DNA of 64,000 nucleotides, taken from the NCBI RefSeq assembly GCF_042453785.1, contig NC_091673.1, positions 1,309,501 through 1,373,500 on the forward strand, read 5' to 3'. The DNA comes from Malus domestica (lineage: Eukaryota > Streptophyta > Magnoliopsida > Rosales > Rosaceae). Shown here piece after piece: positions 30,051-57,720 of this stretch. The position numbers and the translations under genes are program-made. Below the pieces are notes generated by a model, which made no database searches, was not told the DNA's origin, and saw nothing but the letters and a program-made list of their open reading frames with translations. The stretch's first letter is position 1, and every line of letters starts with the position of its first letter.

Positions 30051-33000
30051 ATGGCTACTCTGCTGTTCTTCTTCCTGTTGGCTGTCTCCGCAGTTTCTGC
30101 TGGTGAAGGTAAGCTTTTATGCCTCTCTGTACTTGTGTGTGTGTGTGTATTCCTTGTATGTTTAAGCAACTCTCTAAAATCTTAAGCTTTCATTTCTCAA
30201 TAATCCCTTTTTTTATGATTAAAATCTAATTTTTGGATGTCTGCATTGTGTTCTACGAGTTCCTATGTGCCAAAGACCCTTCCCTTCTTCTTAAAGTTGC
30301 ATTCTTTTGGTGTTTTGATGCGTTTCCGATGTGGGTTTTTGCCTCCTTTTTTCTGGGTCTTTTTTAAACATGTTCAAATGAATGGTAGTTTTTTCTAATA
30401 AATCTGCAAAGTCAGTGAGTTTATTGTGACTGATTTGTATAATATAGGTTTAGACAACATTCTTTGCAACTGTTCTGGTCAATAAAATTTAAATTTGCAG
30501 TAGTCTAGCGTGGTCTTCACTGTTTGACTTTGGTCAACAAAAGTTAAGTTCCAATAGTTTACAGGTCATTTGATTTGATTTGAAGTTTCAATTGTTGCCG
30601 CACTTTGAGTCTTTGACCAAAAAAGAAAGACAGGTTCTTCTTGAAAGATGCAGTCTTTCAAAAGGGGGAGAGAGAGAGAGAGAGAGTGGGTGCATTTAGC
30701 TGATTGAGAGATCCAACAAGAATGCCGCGTTTTTGTTGGTTGAGAGATCCAACTTGTTATGCAAGTTAGTCGGAGCTATTTACCATTTAGGCTGATTGTT
30801 TCTATACTGGGAGGTAAGCTGTCACTTTTCCCTGATTGTTTCCTACACCTTCCAACCACATGCCGTATGTAATATGTGTCCGACGACAATATTAGCATAG
30901 CTGAGATTCGTATGATTCTTAAGATTGTTGGGATGTTTCTCCCGTGCCACCTTTATTGAATTCCCGTCACAGCTGTTTAGTTGTATCATGGATTCACGAT
31001 GCTTGTCTATGAAGAAAGAGAACATGGTGGAGCGGTAGCTTGGGCCCATTATCTGGTCTCTAGACAGGAGATTAGAGGATTGCCTCCGGCATGTTTCGTG
31101 TTTGGTCATGAGGGTCTAATTGGATCAGTACAAACTAATTAGAGTTGTTCCTTAAAAAGTAAATCAAGCTGACAATGTCAAGATGGTTTTTCTGGATATC
31201 CATAAATTCGAAACATGTCACATTTATGAGTTGTACTACCCGTTCTACATGCATGATGAAGTGTTTTCGGAATACAAGAGATTCCGTTTCACAGGACAAT
31301 TTTGTTGTCTAATCCTGCATTCTTTGTTAATGTTTTGCAGATGCCTTCGTTGGTGTAAACCTCGGTACAGATCTTTCTGCCATGCCGAGCCCAACTCAGG
31401 TGGTGGCACTTCTTAAAGCTCAAAATATTCGACATATCAGACTCTATGATGCAGACAGAACCATGCTCCTCGCTCTTGCAAACACTGGCATCCAAGTGAT
31501 GGTTTCGGTTCCTAATGACCAGCTCATTGGGATTGGCCAGTCCAATGCCACTGCTGCTAACTGGGTTGCTCGCAATGTGATAGCCCATGTCCCTGCCACC
31601 AACATCACTGCTATAGCTGTTGGATCGGAAGTCCTTAGTGCCCTCCCAAATGCTGCTCCAGTCCTAGTTTCTGCCCTGAAGTTCATTCACTCTGCACTTG
31701 TTGCGTCTAACCTTGACCGCCAAATTAGAGTCTCTACTCCACACTCTTCCTCCATTATTCTCGACTCCTTTCCACCATCTCAAGCCTTCTTCAATCGCTC
31801 ATGGGACCCAGTCATGGTTCCCCTGCTCAAGTTCTTGCAGTCTACAGATTCATATCTCATGCTCAATGTCTATCCGTATTATGATTACGTGCAATCAAAC
31901 GGTGTAATCCCCTTGGACTATGCACTTTTCCGCCCTCTCCCTCCAAACAAGGAAGCCGTGGATGCTAATACACTGCTGCATTATACTAATGTCTTCGAGG
32001 CTATTGTTGATGCAGCCTATTTTGCAATGTCCTATCTAAACATCACTAATATCCCTATTGTAGTGACCGAGTCAGGCTGGCCTTCAAAGGGTGGCTCAGC
32101 GGAGCCAGATGCCACACTTGACAATGCCAACACTTACAACAGTAACCTAATTAGGCACGTGCTTAACAACACGGGGACTCCCAAGCATCCTGGGATTGCT
32201 GTTAGCACTTATATTTATGAGCTTTACAATGAGGATTTGAGACCTGGGTCTGTCTCTGAAAAGAATTGGGGACTTTTTAATGCTGATGGAGTGCCAGTTT
32301 ATACCTTGCACTTAACAGGTGCTGGAACTGTGTTGGCAAATGACACAACAAACCAAACCTTTTGTGTTGCGAGGGAAGGTGCCGATAAAAAGATGCTACA
32401 AGCAGCCTTGGATTGGGCTTGTGGACCAGGGAAAGTTGATTGCTCGCCTTTGCTGCAGGGTCAACCATGTTATGAACCAAATAATGTGCTCACACACGCA
32501 ACATATGCTTTCAATGCATATTTTCAGCTGATGGCCAAGTCACCTGGAACTTGTGATTTCAAAGGGGTGGCTACCGTTACTACCACAGATCCAAGTATGG
32601 TATCATGACATGTTTATTTGCATCATATTTTCAATTATTACAGACTAGCTTAGGTGCTTTGATAAAACTTTAGTAGTGAAGACTGCATCAAGTGGAAATT
32701 TTTCTGTTTATGGCACTGGCATTGTGTTATATCCTGCACTTTTGTTGGTGAAAATCTTGCTTTGTTACTGATATATTTCATTGCCAATTCTTGCAGGTCA
32801 CGGCACTTGTATATTTCCAGGAAGGTACAAGTTTAAACTCTCTCATCTTATTACGAATATATTTTAACTTCCAAGAGACTACCAGAAATAATCTAACCTT
32901 TTGTTCCTTTTTGGTGAATGTAGTGGCGGGAGAAATAGCACTTTCATCAATGGCACATCACTGGCTCCTTCTTCAAATTCCACAGCTTCTGGGTGCCCTT

Positions 33001-38397: not shown

Positions 38398-39715
38398 TCA
38401 TTTATCTCGACTCATGCCTTCCTCCACCACCGGAGGCACCGGATTCATTGCAACTCCTTCACGGTTCCTTTCCTCGATATTTCCATGCCATCCTAATTAT
38501 TTTGTTATTCAACATTAATCCAACCGAGTCAATGCAAACAGAACAAAAAACATTAACCTAAAATATAGAATTCCATCTAACATTTATTCAATTGGAAAGC
38601 TCAGTTTGTGGCTAAAACAAAACATTAGAAAATTTAATGATATTCGTGCATATCCAAAGGGACAAAAATCAAAGAAATAAGATAAAAAATCTAAGGAGAG
38701 GTTTGTCCTATATATTAATCATATTGAGACGTGTCAGACTTATATTATGATCAGAAATTTTTATGTGTAACTGGTTGTATATCCTAATATTAATTAGTAT
38801 TAATCATATCAGTGACACATCCTTTGACTGCATCTTTGAATTAAAAAAAATATAAATAAAGAAGCAATTACCAAGTTTCAAGTCAAAACCGCGAAACCGA
38901 AGCTCGCGGTACTCTTGACACAAGGCGCAGTGCTCACAGAAGCAATGAACCAAGCAGTCCCCACAAGGGCTCTCTTCCAAGCTGTATTGCTGTCTCATTT
39001 TGGAGCGGTAGAAGCAGGAATAGCAGCATGGACAAGCTGTCACACAAGTAATCAGTGTGTACAGCGCTCCACTGGCACCACAAGCTGCATATCATTTCGT
39101 TAACTAATTAGTTAACCCTCATTAATCAGTTAATAATACACCTTAATCCCATTTAGAAAGAAGGAAAAGGAAAGGAAGAAGCTTAATTAGTTAATTACAT
39201 GTTGAACCCTTATCCACAATCTCTGCAATTTGGCCAAAGGTGATGCATGGACACCAAAGTGTTATGCAACCTGCATGTAGACATATACAATAACATGAAT
39301 CATTAATTCACGAGTAAATGATCCAATATTTCATCCAAATCAAACCCCATTATAAATCACTTTAACAGATTAATCACACACACACACACATATATATATA
39401 TTTATATATAGTAGTAGGATACACACATATATATTTATATATATACTTACAGTTTCTGAAATCGGAGAAGCAGTCGCAGAGGCCGGTGGACCAAGGGATG
39501 AGAGCACGAGGGCGGGGACGGGATGGGGGGTGGGTCATGTGGGAGTGGCCACTGTGGGAGCTCATGTCTTCGTTAGAAGTAGTAAAATAAGGTTCGGTGC
39601 TGGAGCTGACCGGGATACCTGTCGGCGCCAGCGGAGCATCTTGGTGGTGATGGTGGTGGTGCTGGGGGTCGGACGAGGAGTACTTCTCGTATCCCCTTGG
39701 GTGTGACGAGTACAT
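38398..39715 (-). CDS. PLANT CADMIUM RESISTANCE 2-like protein (PLAC8 family), copy A
   Basis: Four exons, 39451-39715, 39199-39270, 38872-39084 and 38398-38492, encode about 214 aa. The start [14 protein letters not shown] is followed by a long hydrophilic N-terminus with a six-His run. The PLAC8 core begins at [17 protein letters not shown] and includes the signature [20 protein letters not shown], then a hydrophobic membrane segment ([20 protein letters not shown]) and the Cys-rich [28 protein letters not shown]. It ends [16 protein letters not shown]. Family knowledge: PCR and cell-number-regulator proteins are small plasma-membrane proteins implicated in Cd/Zn/Ca transport or organ size. 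Exon 2 has 72 nt, the same as in every other copy here. An in-frame upstream ATG at 39853 exists, but family comparison favours 39715. Confidence 0.9.
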
Positions 39716-40803
39716 GATGGCCGAAGATAGGTGGGGAACAATGAGGAGGTTGAGATAATATGATCTCAGACAGATTGAGAGAGAAGACTTGGACAAGCTT
39801 TGATTTATTCTACAACCGAAGAACGGTCGAACGCCGCGTTGACTTGACTTCAAGTCTCCTCCGTCTGCGAGTCTTCCTGTATGCTTCCTTCCTTACAGGG
39901 CTGGGCTAAAGTTTTTTAAGGCCCATGGAAAAGCCTGTGAAAAGGGCCCTTTTATATGATCAATTTTTTTCGTGGATTGGTTTTTGAACATCTATTTTCA
40001 CTTTTTGCATAGCTTTTTTTATTTTATTTTTTATTAAATTTATTCAAACTAATAATTAAAAAAAGATGGATCTGCAAGAGGTGGAAAGTGCTTTTAAAAA
40101 TTACTAGTAGGCGTATTCGTGTATTGCTGCGGGATTTTGAATTTTGTTCAAGAAGTAGAAAATCTTGATAATATGTGGCAAAAAGTCTTAAAACTTTGTT
40201 CAAGTTAACAAAATTGGGAACATTGGAATGCCAAACTCAAGAAGTGTTATTTACATCCATTTATTACATAGACACCCAAATTGGTAACTCCGATGATGAT
40301 TTTGTTCCTTTTATGTCCAAACTGTATTTAAAAAAAAAAACTAAAAATTTGTTCTTTTATAGACACTCAAATCCACAAAGCCATCGAACATCAATATAAT
40401 AACCGAACTCAAATAGAAAGAAATAAAAAAATTAGCGACACAATAGTGACTTTATTATAATATTAAGAACTTATACAAACATTAAAAATAATATTTTAAT
40501 AAACGAAGGTCCACAATCTAAAGAGACTTCAATGAAACATAAAAGACCAACTTGGTTGAATACGATGACAAAACAAGCCCACAATAAACAAATGAACACA
40601 AAAAGTCTTCAAAACATTCGTACCGAAACTCAACAGACAGAGACAACCCTTGACTTCTCAAACTCAAAAGAACCTTACTCTTGATGAAAAATTCAGACGA
40701 GAACGAACTCTTTTATTCAAAGAGACAGCAAACAAAAAACGAAAACGAATTCTTTTATTCCAGATGGTATGATTTCCATGCCACCATCAAGCCAACAGCA
40801 TTA
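39716..40803. other. Copy A promoter and copy B 3' flank; duplicated segment
   Basis: The first 300 bp is the copy A upstream region, repeated at 54000-54300 and in part at 52898-53250. The stretch from about 40220 (ACATTGGAATGCCAAACTCA) is the 3' flank of copy B and recurs downstream of copy C at 42033 and copy D at 54541. No separate gene. Confidence 0.7.
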
Positions 40804-41769
40804 TTATTTGTGATCAGACTGACGATTCATGCCACCCTGCATAGCTGGTGCTGTCACCACTCCACGATTCTGGGACGCATCTCCTAGCCACCCTAACATT
40901 CATTGAAATTAATTAATTAATTAGGAATGATCTTCAAATAATACTTTTTAAAGATAATTACACGTGTATAACACATATCGGTTGATCTAACTAGAATGGA
41001 TAAGGAGGTGCAACGAGACGTTCTATCTAAGTAATTATATTGGAGGGAGGGAACAGCGCATGCACGTACCACTGGCAACATCGAAACCACGTTCCTGGAG
41101 CTCACGGTATTCTTGGCACAGGGCACAGGGGTTGCAGAAGAAATGAACGCAGCAATCGTTGCAAGGTTTTTCCTCCAACGTGTACTGCTCCCTCAGTTCG
41201 GTTCGAAAGCCGCGAGTAATGCAGAAACCGCAAGAAATGCCGAATGCGAAGTTAGTAACGAAATTAATTGCTGCATATGAACATCCATGCCAAAAACAAC
41301 CTGCATACGCATGCACATTTTGTTCACTTCCAATTTCAACAATCACTTAATTTAGGGCACGTCTTGGGCTGTTTCCGTATGAAGCGCTCATGTTAAGAGT
41401 TATAAGTACGTGCTTCTATTATGAAAATATTGAAAATTTTATAATTATCCAAGTTTAGATATCGAGTTACTGGGTTCTTTTAAAAGAAACATTACTGGTT
41501 TCTCCTTTTGAGACAATCTCTGCAACACGCCCAGCAACAACGCAAGGACACCAAAATCCCAAGCAGCCTGCAGTCCAAATTACGTTATATATAGGTTTAG
41601 GGTTTGTATGATCAAATCATCAATCGGTATACATTCATATACCAAACAAGTAAACATGGTATAATTGATTTAGCTAGCTAGACGGGAAGGGAAGAGAATA
41701 GAAGCTGCGCTTACAGACACTGCAATCACTGAAGCAGTCAAGCAGGCCAGTGCTCCATCCACCCGACAT
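40804..41769 (-). CDS. PLANT CADMIUM RESISTANCE-like protein (PLAC8 family), copy B
   Basis: Four exons, 41715-41769, 41496-41567, 41070-41300 and 40804-40892, encode 148 aa. The protein starts [20 protein letters not shown], has the PLAC8 motif [20 protein letters not shown], a membrane segment around YAAINFVTNFAFGISCGFC, the Cys-rich [20 protein letters not shown], and ends GGMNRQSDHK. Intron phases (1, 1, 1) match copy A. It lacks copy A's long His-rich N-terminus. It is about 80 percent similar by eye to copies C and D. Likely a plasma-membrane metal or calcium related protein by family; substrate unknown. It lies 1.1 kb from copy A on the same strand. Confidence 0.88.
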
Positions 41770-42551
41770 CTTTTTCTGCAAACGGTTGGGGCATATACAT
41801 ACACACATGCATACATATATATATAGATGCATATGCGATCGATGTTATTGGAATCTGCACTGGACTGCACTATGCATGTTTGACTTTTCGTGCAAAATTA
41901 TTGAGGGGTGTGATATCCACACATTCCATTTTACTTCTCACACACATTCTTAATTTTCGGCCGTCGAATCGGATGTCGGCTAGTACGTGCCTACCTTGGT
42001 GTTCGAGGAATGTCAGGGTCGGGCGTGTCACATTGGAATGACATACTCAAGGAGTGTTATTTACATCTATATATTACATAAGAAAAATTGGTAACTCCGA
42101 TAATGATTTGTACCTTTTATGTCCAAATTGTATAAAAAACTAAAATTTGTTCATTTACAAACACCCAAATTCGTAACTTCGATAATGACTTCTCCTTGGT
42201 TTTCCACAAAGCCATCGAACATCAATATAATAACCGATTAGAAACAATAGAACCCACCACTTTAAGATACACGCACATACAAACATTAAAAATAATATTT
42301 GATAAAAGAGAGTCCATAATCTAAAGATACTTCAACAAAACATAAAAGGTCAACTCGATTGAATACCATGGCGAGACAAACCCACAAATTAGCAAATGAA
42401 TACATAAAGTCTTCAAATTATTCACACCCAAACTCAACAAACTAAGATGACTCTCCAAAGCCAAATGAAGTTTATTCAAGAGACGGCAAACAAAAATCGA
42501 AAGCGTATTCTTTTATACCGGATGGTATGAAGCATCAAGCCAAAACCATTA
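41770..42551. other. Upstream of copy B and 3' flank of copy C
   Basis: Holds a half copy of the GGGGTGTG...CACACC MITE at about 41905-41975 and, from 42033, the tandemly duplicated copy-C 3' flank. No other gene seen. Confidence 0.65.
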
Positions 42552-53257: not shown

Positions 53258-53651
53258 TTAAATTTGCTGTCTCATTTTGGAGCGGTAGAAGCAGGAATAG
53301 CAGCATGGACAAGCTGTCACACAAGTAATCAGTGTGTACAGCGCTCCACTGGCACCACAAGCTGCATATCATTTCGTTAACTAATTAGTTAACCCTCATT
53401 AATCAGTTAATAATACACCTTAATCCCATTTAGAAAGAAGGAAAAGGAAAGGAAGAAGCTTAATTAGTTAATTACATGTTGAACCCTTATCCACAATCTC
53501 TGCAATTTGGCCAAAGGTGATGCATGGACACCAAAGTGTTATGCAACCTGCATGTAGACATATACAATAACATGAATCATTAATTCACGAGTAAATGATC
53601 CAATATTTCATCCAAATCAAACCCCATTATAAATCACTTTAACAGATTAAT

Positions 53652-53684
<33 letters not shown>

Positions 53685-53998
53685 TTATATATAGTAGTAG
53701 GATACACACATATATATTTATATATATACTTACAGTTTCTGAAATCGGAGAAGCAGTCGCAGAGGCCGGTTGACCAAGGGATGAGAGCACGAGGGCGGAG
53801 ACGGGATGGGGGGTGGGTCATGTGGGAGTGGCCACTGTGGGAGCTCATGTCTTCGTTAGAAGTAGTAAAATAAGGTTCGGTGCTGGAGCTGACCGGGATA
53901 CCTGTCGGCGCCGGCGGAGCATCTTGGTGGTGATGGTGGTGGTGCTGGGGGTCGGACGAGGAGTACTTCTCGTATCCCCTTGGGTGTGACGAGTACAT
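53258..53998 (-). pseudogene. Truncated PCR2-like gene, copy A'
   Basis: Exons 1 (53734-53998) and 2 (53476-53547) are complete and nearly identical to copy A. Exon 3 starts at 53361 but homology stops at about 53264, after FYRSKMRQQ. The frame then reads one more codon into foreign sequence and stops at 53258-53260, giving about 146 aa instead of 214. The Cys-rich C-terminal half of PLAC8 ([13 protein letters not shown] in copy A) and exon 4 are missing. One change in the N-terminus is DAPPAPTG for DAPLAPTG. The breakpoint joins exon 3 to a further copy of the A promoter. It could still be transcribed, since its promoter is duplicated with it, but the domain is incomplete. Confidence 0.88.
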
Positions 53999-54614
53999 GA
54001 TGGCCGAAGATAGGTGGGGAACGATGAGGAGGTTGAGATAATATGATCTCAGACAGACTGAGAGAGAAGACTTGGACAAGCTTTGATTTATTCTACAACC
54101 GAAGAACGGTCCAACGCCGCGTTGACTTGACTTCAAGTCTCCTCCGTCTGCGAGTCTTCCTGTATGCTTCCTTCCTTACAAGGCTGGGCTAAAGTTTTTT
54201 AAGGCCCATGGAAAAGCCTGTGAAAAGGGCCCTTTTATATGATCAATTTTTTTCGTGGATTGGTTTTTGAACATCTATTTTCACTTTTTGCATAGCTTTT
54301 TTTATTTTATTTTTTATTAAATTTATTCAAACTAATAACTAAAAAAAGATGGATCTGCAAGAGGTGGAAAAGAGCTTTTAAAAATTACTAGTAGGCGTAT
54401 TCGTGTATTGCTGTGGGATTTTGAATTTTGTTCAAGTAGAAAGTCTTGACAAGATGCGGTAAAAAGCACAGTTTAATGTTTACATTATATGCAACATTCA
54501 TGTAAAGTCTTAAAACTTTGTTCAAGTTAACAAAATTGGGGACATTGGAATGCCAAACTCAAGAAGTGTTATTTACATCCATTTATTACATAGACACCCA
54601 AATGTGTTCCTTTA
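53999..54614. other. Copy A' promoter and copy D 3' flank
   Basis: Duplicate of 39716-40285, with a short extra segment near 54460-54500. No separate gene. Confidence 0.7.
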
Positions 54615-55753
54615 GGGTGCGTTTGGTACGTGGGACGAGACGGAACAGAGTGGGACGGACGCGTTCCGTCCCACGTTTGGTGCGCTTAAATTGTGTGGAA
54701 CGCCTGTCCCACGGAACGAAAATGGGTTAAATTTTGGTTCCATATACCCCCTGGAACGGGTTGTTCCATCCCGTAGAACACAAATTTATAATTTTTTGGA
54801 CAACAATACCCCTCATCTTTTTCATTAATTCCACTGTCTACCCTTGCTTTCTCTCCCGTAGCCTCCATCTCTTCGAATTCGTTCCTCTCTCCCGTAGCCT
54901 CCCTCTCTTCGAATTCGATCCCAGCAAACCCATCTGAACCCAAACCATGGCTTCCGGTTCAGTCCCTTCGCGCTCTATCTTCTTCTCCGGCGCCGTCACC
55001 TCCGCGCTCAACCTTCTTCTCTGGCGCCGTCACCTCCGCGCTCCACCTTCTTCTTCGACACTCCGACCTCCTCGTCGAGGCGGTACCAATCGCGATCCAG
55101 TGACGGCAGTGAAGACTGAAGAAGATGGTGTTGTGGGTAGACAAGTACCGACCCAAAACCCTAGACCAGACAATTGTCCACCAAGACATCGCCCAAAACC
55201 TCAAGAAACTCGTGCAACTCTACCCCTCCCTCGTCGATTTCAATTCCCAATTTCTACGATTTCATAACCCTAACTTCTTCTTGTGCAGATTGCAGAGCAG
55301 GATTGCCCCCATTTGCTCTTTTATGTCGTTGGGCTTTGCTGCCACATCGATGAGGAGCATCCGGTGGAGGCTAAGAACGGGGCATTTTGTTCAATTTCAC
55401 TTTTTTTAGTTTAATTTTGTAAGTTTTACAGTAAAAATGGTTGTTTGAATACGAACTTTCGAGATTCAGATCTTCTGTGGATTGATTTTTATGGGTTTGA
55501 TTTACTGAGATTGATTTTTACTGGGATCAATCTGGGCATGCGAAGAACACGAAACGTATGGAAGAAGAGAAAGCAGAGAAACGGGAGAGAGAGGGAGAGT
55601 CAAATAAAAAGGGCAAGTTAGTCATTTAATCCCGTTCCGTTCTGTTCCATCTTGCTAGTACCAAACATGACACGAAATCTTTGTTCCGTTCCATCCCGTT
55701 CCGTTCCGTCCCATCCAGTCCCGTTTCGTCCCGTCTGCGTACCAAACGGTATC
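54615..55753. mobile_element. TIR transposon carrying RFC3 gene exons (Pack-type)
   Basis: The element interrupts the duplicated 3' flank of copy D; the paralogous site at 40270 is uninterrupted. Ends GGGTGCGTTTGGTACG and CGTACCAAACGGTATC are imperfect inverted repeats that continue as GGGACGGAAC-rich arms of about 100 bp. TTA flanks both sides (54612-54614, 55754-55756), suggesting PIF/Harbinger. No transposase is visible. The interior is GC-rich and contains two exons of replication factor C subunit 3 with an intron. The captured part is in the plus orientation. Confidence 0.75.
55125..55327 (+). pseudogene. Captured fragment of replication factor C subunit 3 (RFC3), two exons with intron
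   Basis: From the ATG at 55125 the sequence reads MVLWVDKYRPKTLDQTIVHQ then DIAQNLKKL, which is the start of the small clamp-loader subunit RFC3 (WVDKYRPK is the hallmark). At 55212 a GT begins an intron that ends TTCTTGTGCAG at 55288. The next exon starts IAEQDCPHLLFY, the following RFC3 segment, and loses homology just before the Walker A GPSGSGKKT that a real gene has. So exon 1 and about 39 nt of exon 2 were captured as genomic DNA, not from mRNA. It cannot make a clamp-loader subunit. Confidence 0.85.
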
Positions 55754-55756
55754 TTA

Positions 55757-56280
55757 TAGACACCCAAATTGGTAAGTCGGATGATGATTTTGTTCCTTTT
55801 ATGTCCAAACTGTATTTAAAAAACAACTAAAAATTTGTTCTTTTATAGACACCCAAATCCACAAAGCCATCGAACATCAATATAATAACCGAACTCAAAT
55901 AGAAAGAAAGAAAAAAATTAGCGACACAATAGTGACTTTATTATAATATTAAGAACTTATACAAATATTAAAAATAATATTTTAATAAACGAAGGTCCAC
56001 AATCTAAAGTGACTTCAATAAAACATAAAAGGCCAACTTGGTTGAATACAATGACAAAACAAGCCCACAATAAACAATTGAACACAAAAAGTCTTCAAAA
56101 CGTTCATACCGAAACTCAACAGACAGAGACAAACCTCAAACTCAAAAGAACCTTATTCTGATGAAAAATTCAGACGAAAACGAACTCTTTTATTCAAAGA
56201 GACAGCAAACAAAAAACGAAAACGAATTCTTTTATTCCAGATGGTATGATTTCCATGCCACCATCAAGCCAACAGCATTA
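55757..56280. other. Copy D 3' flank
   Basis: Resumes the segment duplicated from 40290-40803. No separate gene. Confidence 0.75.
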
Positions 56281-57242
56281 TTATTTGTGATCAGAATGAC
56301 GATTCATGCCACCCTGCAGAGCTGGTGCTGTCACCACTCCACGATTCTGGGACGCATTTCCTTTCCACCCTAACATTCATTGAAATTAATTAATTAATTA
56401 GGAATGATCTTCAAATAATACTTTTTTAAGATAATTACACGTGTATAACACATATCGGTTGATCTAACTAGAGTGGATAAGGAGGTGCAACGAGACGTTC
56501 TATCTAAGTAATTATATTGGAGGGAGGGAACAGCGCATGCACGTACCACTGGCAACATCGAAACCACGGTTCTGGAGCTCACGGTATTCTTGGCACAAGG
56601 CACAGGAGTTGCAGAAGAAATGAACGCAGCAATCGTTGCAAGGTTTTTCCTCCAACATGTACTGCCCCCTCAGTTGGGTTCGATAGCCGCAAGTAATGCA
56701 GCATGCTAAGTTAGTATAGTAATTAATTGCTGCATATAAACATCCATGCCAAAAACAACCTGCATACGCATGCACATTTTGTTCACTTCCAATTTCAACA
56801 TCATCGTCAAATTTTAATCACTTAATTTAACGCACGTCTTGGGCTGTTTCCGTATGAAGCGCTCATGTTAAGAGTTATAAGTACGTGCTTCTATTATGAA
56901 AATATTGAAAATTTTATAATTATCCAAGTTTAGATATCGAGTTACTGGGTTCTTAAAAGAAACATTACTGGTTTGTCCTTTGGAGACAATCTCTGCAACA
57001 CGCCCAGCAACAACGCAAGGACACCAAAATCCCAAGCAGCCTGCAGTCCAAATTACGTTATATATAGGTTTAGGGTTTGTATGATCAAATCATCAATCGA
57101 TATATATTCATATACCAAATAAGTAAACATGGTATAATTGATTTAGTTAGCTAGCCAGGAAGGGAAGAGAATAGAAGCTGCGCTTACAGACACTGCAGTC
57201 ACTGAAGCAGTCAAGCAGGCCAGTGGTCCATCCACCCGACAT
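56281..57242 (-). CDS. PLANT CADMIUM RESISTANCE-like protein (PLAC8 family), copy D
   Basis: Four exons, 57188-57242, 56969-57040, 56547-56759 and 56281-56369, encode 142 aa. It starts [20 protein letters not shown], keeps [20 protein letters not shown] and [20 protein letters not shown], and ends [10 protein letters not shown]. Exon 3 is 213 nt instead of 231, an in-frame loss of six residues in the hydrophobic segment (copy B has AFGISCGFC where D has ACC). Frame and splice sites are otherwise intact. It is the partner of A' in the block copied from the A-B pair. It may be functional, but the shortened membrane segment could affect it. Confidence 0.85.
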
Positions 57243-57720
57243 CTTTTTTTCCACACCGTTGGGGCATATACATACACACACCATGCATATATATATGCGA
57301 TCGATGTTAATGGAATCTGCACTAGACCGCACTATGCATGTTTTGCCTTGACGTGCAGAATTGTCATGATCATGGATAGCAACGGCAGATGAAGGAGCAT
57401 TTATACGATGAAGTACGAGTAAATACATGTTCACGACCGAAAAAAACCGAGACGATGTTTTTTATTTATTTTTTGAATGAAAAAAAGGTTTATTATATTA
57501 ATATCCCATAAATTGTTGAATAAACTTCACATACTTAATACACCATATATTTGCTTTTTCACTTAAAAATTATCTTAATACACCTTACATAATTTCCCAT
57601 AATATCCTTACACCCCACATTCTCAATATACACCTTATATTTTGTACATACACCCCACATCTGATCTAGCAGGCCATTCGACAACACTTTACTGACTGCA
57701 CAGTCATTACTATTGCGCGT
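57243..57720. other. Upstream of copy D to the start of the gypsy fossil
   Basis: Promoter of copy D, then AT-rich sequence with ACACCTTA and ACACCCCACAT phrases. No gene seen. Confidence 0.5.

Follow-up and report, generated by a model that had tools for sequence, protein, structure and literature searches.

A PIF/Harbinger-like Pack-TYPE element of apple, with a replication factor C gene piece nested within Di19 gene sequence captured earlier

Results

The locus and the boundaries of the element

The window analyzed here is a stretch of 64,000 nucleotides of the Malus domestica genome (C13:1309501-1373500). It contains an ordinary plant gene at 31382-32608, a 408-aa open frame with glycosyl hydrolase family 17 and X8 domains (253.6 and 68.7 bits), and a PLAC8-family gene on the minus strand at 53258-53998. 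The three exons of the latter, joined by eye, reached 68 bits (cutoff, 34.4), with exons two and three scoring 27 and 19.4 bits when taken apart. Ca. 0.6 kb upstream of its probable ATG, which a count by hand places near 53998, lies the element that is the subject of this work; there is no element at the paralogous site near the PLAC8-like gene of the 40-kb block.

The element covers 1139 bp (54615-55753, plus strand) and begins with the 5' terminal inverted repeat (TIR) GGGTGCGTTTGGTACG (54615-54630) and ends with the 3' repeat CGTACCAAACGGTATC (55738-55753). A TTA at 54612-54614 and another at 55754-55756 form a perfect duplication of the target site. The earlier note on this DNA had described a nonautonomous TIR element flanked by TTA at this place, and its coordinates proved exact, with ends that are inverted repeats. 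The condition that it set for the capture model, that these ends recur around other insertions, was borne out as well. Throughout the genome searched (651 Mb in 19 contigs), the 16-bp end had 616 exact matches (0 for the reversed pattern), and TTA or TAA preceded 332 of them (54%). When TTA plus the 16-bp end was searched with at most one mismatch, there were 507 matches, against 0 for the reversed pattern used as a control, so the recurrence of the TTA-flanked end is not due to chance.

Many of the listed ends were paired at a spacing of a few hundred base pairs, and six of the eight end-bearing loci examined had an element of 273 to 315 bp with matching 3-bp duplications. The TIR family thus has both small MITEs and cargo-bearing forms of 1.1 kb. 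Among the matches listed, two neighboring pairs of small copies (C1:29186523-29187138 and C2:9190916-9191530) had 3 bp between their members, as would be the case if one copy had landed at the target duplication of its partner. Because TTA or TAA stands before 332 of the 616 exact ends, the family is PIF/Harbinger-like, as judged from these termini. Among the 13 elements that carry Di19 sequence (see below), matching 3-bp target duplications were readable in 11 (that of L015 by eye); six were TTA or TAA, and the remaining five, AGA, CGA, ATA, ATA, and TCA, count against the explanation that we prefer.

The element has 25 stop-to-stop frames of at least 40 aa. In the 10 of them scanned against Pfam, with E values up to 0.1, no transposase family was detected; there was one subthreshold match, to Rad17, in the RFC3 frame described below. 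A genome search for DDE_Tnp_4 gave 157 matches, with 150 of 1216 candidates scored. Among 100 TTA-end sites and 101 transposase matches listed on C1 to C11, the closest pair was 52 kb apart and none was separated by 50 kb or less. No autonomous partner emerged from these listed sites, which likewise counts against the preferred explanation.

A replication factor C gene piece and its donor

Inside the element is a 226-bp piece of a replication factor C gene (55100-55325, plus strand), which includes 25 nt of 5' untranslated region upstream of the start codon. It continues with an exon 1 of 87 nt from the ATG at 55125 (55125-55211; MVLWVDKYRPK...), a 77-bp GT..AG intron 1 (55212-55288), and the first 37 nt of exon 2 (55289-55325), which end before the P-loop with an ATG common to Di19. 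The description of this cargo as two exons and an intron is thus correct for exon 1, which is complete, and for the intron, but exon 2 is a 37-nt stub.

A genome search with this piece, in which all 9 candidates were scored, returned 10 matches: five elements, two genes on C4, two exon pieces on C12, and one Di19 gene on C13, the last a short match through the Di19 end of the query. The start of the donor gene matched 33 clamp-loader sequences in the PDB, the best being chains named as subunits 5 and 3 of replication factor C (E values of 4 to 5e-16; 61.5 to 61.8 bits), followed by other small subunits at 59.7 bits. We use the name RFC3, which rests on a small margin of ca. 2 bits over the other small subunits and on the likeness to the plant RFC3 sequence.

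The two RFC3 genes on C4, at C4:4635047 (L022; here, C4a) and C4:4743406 (L023; here, C4b), are ca. 108 kb apart and 91 to 95% alike in aligned pieces, and both begin with an RFC3 frame that stays open through exons 1 and 2. The captured piece showed 6 mismatches in 226 positions to C4a (C4:4635047-4635273) and 9 to C4b. The RFC3 gene on C12, presumably a homoeologue, matched it in exons alone. Comparison of the captured with the parental introns gave 1 mismatch in 77 to C4a, where the 77-bp intron occupies the same position, and 4 in 77 to C4b. Given that the likely parental gene carries the same intron, DNA and not mRNA was captured, in agreement with the earlier note.

An extra codon after the ATG is present in the five RFC3-bearing copies of the element (see below) and in C4a and absent from C4b and C12, and this shared codon points to the C4a lineage as the donor. 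Other sites speak against a simple origin from C4a: at two of them, all five copies match C4b and not C4a; at a third, three of the five match C4b and the other two (L009 and L010) match C4a; and at a further one (TTG after the extra codon), all five match C12 and neither C4 gene. We read these discordant sites as later changes in C4a plus one back-change.

Di19 sequence from an earlier capture surrounds RFC3

The RFC3 piece is nested within part of a Di19 zinc-finger gene that had been captured before it and that was absent from the earlier note. All of its parts lie on the plus strand. On the left is a 40-bp remnant of exon 1 (55064-55103; 97.5% identical to the C13 Di19 gene), the last four bases of which, GTGA, overlap the RFC3 piece. 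On the right are the 3' half of exon 2 (55326-55381), corresponding to about half of the zf-Di19 domain, and a remnant of intron 2 (55382-55465). The donor-type gene, near C13:12204 kb, has a zf-Di19 domain of 89.0 bits (Pfam cutoff, 27.5). It aligns (L076 3823-4316) with two RFC3-free elements, L017 and L019, from 37 nt before the ATG into intron 2, with intron 1 covered and two gaps in intron 2.

Ca. 50 bp of Di19 exon 2 kept in the window copy are gone from the four other RFC3-bearing copies. At 55466-55489 and in L009 to L012, a 24-bp filler occupies the place where a stretch beside Di19 intron 2 (128 bp in L013) stood; it partly resembles nearby element sequence and looks like a second repair scar in the RFC3-bearing clade. 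For the segment 54920-55095, a search for a host source found none, its 22 matches being taken for family elements and a short match to the Di19 gene.

Three stages of the family in one genome

RFC3 was found in at least five copies of the element, namely, the window copy and those at C5:31334264, C8:4668532, C13:21694585, and C16:10808657, with the gene piece joined at identical positions inside the same ends. Four of them have target duplications (TTA in the window copy, then AGA, TTA, and CGA), and the fifth has an altered left end and TTA at the right. Pairwise, the five differed at 1.9 to 3.1% of aligned bases. In a phylogenetic tree they formed one clade (support, 1.000), within which the order was weakly supported: the window copy was grouped with L012 (0.773), despite a deletion common to the other four and absent from the window copy. 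The distances in this tree to other Di19 elements are inflated, with replaced segments aligned to each other.

Di19 sequence without RFC3 was present in at least eight elements (L013 to L020), most of which have since lost parts of Di19; three (L017, L019, and L020) retain Di19 intron 1, the state preceding RFC3. Three further relatives (L021, L092, and L093) have no Di19 and read ...GTAAATTGAAA|AAAA... at the Di19 position. These counts are lower bounds, as scoring covered 40 of the 1204 candidates from the first look in one search and 40 of the 203 in another. As read from these forms, the order is from no Di19 to Di19 and then to RFC3 within Di19, with all three stages surviving in one genome, since the reverse would need Di19-only copies to regain exactly the stretch that was replaced. 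A history with RFC3 first and Di19 later was accordingly rejected, the Di19-only elements holding the replaced Di19 stretch contiguous with the gene. We also rejected a processed, mRNA-derived copy because the introns of both RFC3 and Di19 are retained.

Other members of the TIR family carry other cargo. A second branch (L084, L085, and L027) has an antisense purple-acid-phosphatase-like stretch, for which 18 places in the genome covered at least 388 of 511 bases. The Pfam domain fn3_PAP scored 27.5 bits on it, below the cutoff of 33, and a PDB search with the frame gave 0 matches. One of the relatives without Di19 has another foreign stretch (L092:634-832; C17:14532083-14532281), the parts of which match C16:5106437-5106516 and C16:5106715-5106833. 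These are ca. 200 bp apart on C16 and joined in the element, as they also are at C8:27978657-27978783, which implies either loss of the gap or capture of a spliced form.

The insertion site and the duplicated block

The earlier note had placed the element in a duplicated gene block, and both pairs of segments do align, 38987-40185 with 53264-54466 at 97.8% and 40268-41899 with 55756-57362 at 92.8%. It had further taken an empty site at 40270 as showing that the element arrived after the duplication. The element is indeed missing from this paralogous site (40260-40285, plus strand), but so is a 24-bp unit that lies beside the element (54590-54613, plus strand; its limits may slide by one base), and the site is thus not a base-exact preinsertion site. 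The unit is also absent near 42.08 kb and at C13:1380270 (L061). Its first 14 bp make up a direct repeat that flanks the element (54590-54603 and 55756-55769), and a deletion between the two copies of this repeat would yield exactly the sequence seen at 40270.

Given that three paralogous sites have neither the element nor the 24-bp unit, a single gain, by insertion into this copy of the block, is the simpler reading. Arrival after the duplication is therefore supported by the three element-free sites, and by that at 40270 in particular, but short of proof, as the deletion route gives the same sequence. Between the two blocks, the flanks have diverged by 2.2% and 7.2% with gaps counted, values too near the 1.9 to 3.1% among the RFC3-bearing copies for the order to be settled by age.

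Junctions and the mode of capture

At the left RFC3 junction, the gene reads ...CCAA|GTGA|CGG and the older element ...CCG|GTGA|GTT, an overlap of 4 bp located at the Di19 splice donor; at the right junction the overlap is ATG (3 bp). The Di19 junctions, inspected by eye, had zero overlap, and where Di19 entered, the element sequences on its two sides are contiguous in element coordinates to within a few bases, inside a run of A. A comparison of 18 element queries with five donor stretches (L022, L023, L076, L074, and L062) revealed no element sequence beyond the captured pieces.

The sequence comparisons show the following series of events. A PIF/Harbinger-like element without Di19, of the kind that survives in the relatives, was the starting point. 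Part of Di19, from 37 nt before the ATG through the first two exons and the intron between them into intron 2, entered its A-rich stretch. The start of RFC3, closest to C4a, later took the place of intron 1 of Di19 together with the 5' half of exon 2, at the junctions that carry the overlaps of 4 and 3 bp. The product is present at no fewer than five loci, presumably moved by a transposase supplied elsewhere. Each capture probably took place when a break inside an existing element was mended with sequence copied from an unlinked gene.

The main alternative is that each capture began with two adjacent insertions around a host gene that were mobilized jointly as one hybrid element. Fusion of neighbors is the model proposed for Pack-TYPE elements, a maize Pack-PIF cluster being among the examples described (PMC8903248), and closely packed copies do occur in the apple family, with two pairs 3 bp apart among the matches listed of the 616 ends. 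We consider it rather unlikely here, since two independent truncations would rarely leave element parts that meet within a few bases, as those around Di19 do, and the donors, on C4 and C13, have no family remnant in the five stretches examined (as they stand today in one genome). From the junctions and the donor stretches taken together, template-switching repair inside an existing element is favored over neighbor fusion. The lack of overlap at the Di19 junctions and the probability that overlaps such as those of RFC3 arise at a single random junction (ca. 5.1% for at least 3 bp and 1.6% for at least 4 bp) keep this preference short of proof.

Coding potential of the cargo

In the window copy, a possible spliced frame (55125-55211 plus 55289-55414, plus strand) would encode 70 aa, with the RFC3 N terminus in frame with Di19: it runs from MVLWVDKYRPK...CPHLLFY directly into VVGLCCHIDEEHPVEAKNG of Di19 before the stop. 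In the other four copies the spliced frame is 52 aa long, and one of these, L012, no longer has the AG of the splice acceptor. The chimera contains neither a P-loop nor a whole zinc finger, and zf-Di19 scored 22.8 bits on it, below the cutoff of 27.5. Relative to C4a, the coding changes in the spliced frames were V to I in the first codon of exon 2 (all five copies), A to T in the window copy, and Q to H in L009, too few to be tested as evidence of selection.

That this chimera has been recruited, either as a spliced 70-aa RFC3-Di19 peptide or through small-RNA silencing of RFC3 or Di19, appears very improbable to us. The intact GT..AG intron of the window copy and the run of its spliced frame from RFC3 into half of a Di19 finger fit such a role, as do the 21-mers shared with the parental loci (107 with C4a RFC3 and 73 with C13 Di19), and small-RNA effects on either gene are possible. 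Against it, the Di19 finger is part of the frame in one of the five copies, and with a one-in-three chance of a frame match, its occurrence in a single copy is no sign of function. Besides, the RFC3 piece begins 25 nt before the ATG, so that little or no promoter was captured. From its sequence, the cargo is most likely inert, with no cellular role, and the 70-aa peptide, if spliced, is probably without function.

At a single locus, a MITE that had landed beside an ordinary RFC3 pseudogene, or an assembly artifact, might look the same. Both can be dismissed, refuted as they are by five copies with the same gene piece, joins, and ends on four contigs (C5, C8, C13 twice, and C16); target duplications were read at four of these five loci.

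Discussion

The locus presents what characterizes Pack-TYPE elements. Pieces of host genes with parental genes on C4 (RFC3) and C13 (Di19) lie between the TIRs; there are several copies at different loci (at least five with RFC3 and at least eight more with Di19); no transposase of its own was found in the 1139 bp (10 of 25 frames scanned with Pfam); and the 3-bp target duplication has the preference for TTA/TAA expected of PIF/Harbinger. We have high confidence that this Pack-TYPE element belongs to a PIF/Harbinger-like family and captured first Di19 and then RFC3, probably by break repair and with a cargo likely to have no role. As such, it is a clear case of a known type of event in an unusually complete example. 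We recognized no published account of this apple TIR family among the titles and abstract openings seen, and a search for literature joining RFC, Pack-MULE, and Di19 found none.

Pack-MULEs have Mutator ends, long TIRs, and target duplications of 9 to 11 bp, from which the apple element differs by its short TIRs and 3-bp duplication. The capture of gene pieces is common to both, and chimeric transcripts are known for some Pack-MULEs, as outlined in a 2026 review (PMC13317346). Closer are the Pack-PIF elements of rice and maize, which, as described by Gisby and Catoni in 2022 (PMC8903248), are likewise nonautonomous, with short TIRs, several copies, a host gene piece inside, and a 3-bp duplication that is mostly, though not always, TTA/TAA (in 52.4% of the rice and 81.2% of the maize PIF elements, compared with 54% of the exact ends here). 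In relation to the elements presented there, that of apple is distinguished by two unlinked genes, one captured inside the other, and by the survival of forms from before and after the captures, which do not point to neighbor fusion.

Along similar lines, PIF elements of grapevine carry exons and introns of host genes, some of them common to several copies (PMC2528002). Pifvine-3 thus resembles the apple element in its superfamily and in its host exons and introns, but the grapevine elements are reported there as 5.8 to 6.7 kb long with transposase genes, whereas that of apple is ca. 1.1 kb and none was found in it. The maize element Bs1 is comparable in that a single mobile element combines parts of several host genes in a hybrid reading frame; as summarized in the 2026 review, however, it is a retrotransposon, in contrast to a DNA transposon in which introns were kept (PMC13317346).

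For the capture of unlinked gene pieces by DNA transposons, the same review allows for an alternative mechanism, as yet undiscovered, beside neighbor fusion (PMC13317346), and the apple family bears on this question. With the three-stage record preserved in this genome, we lean toward the view that small PIF/Harbinger elements may repeatedly take in unlinked gene pieces by internal break repair and not by fusion of neighbors. Since the forms before and after two captures and both donors are found in one genome, the breakpoints, the overlaps, and the bases lost are open to direct inspection.
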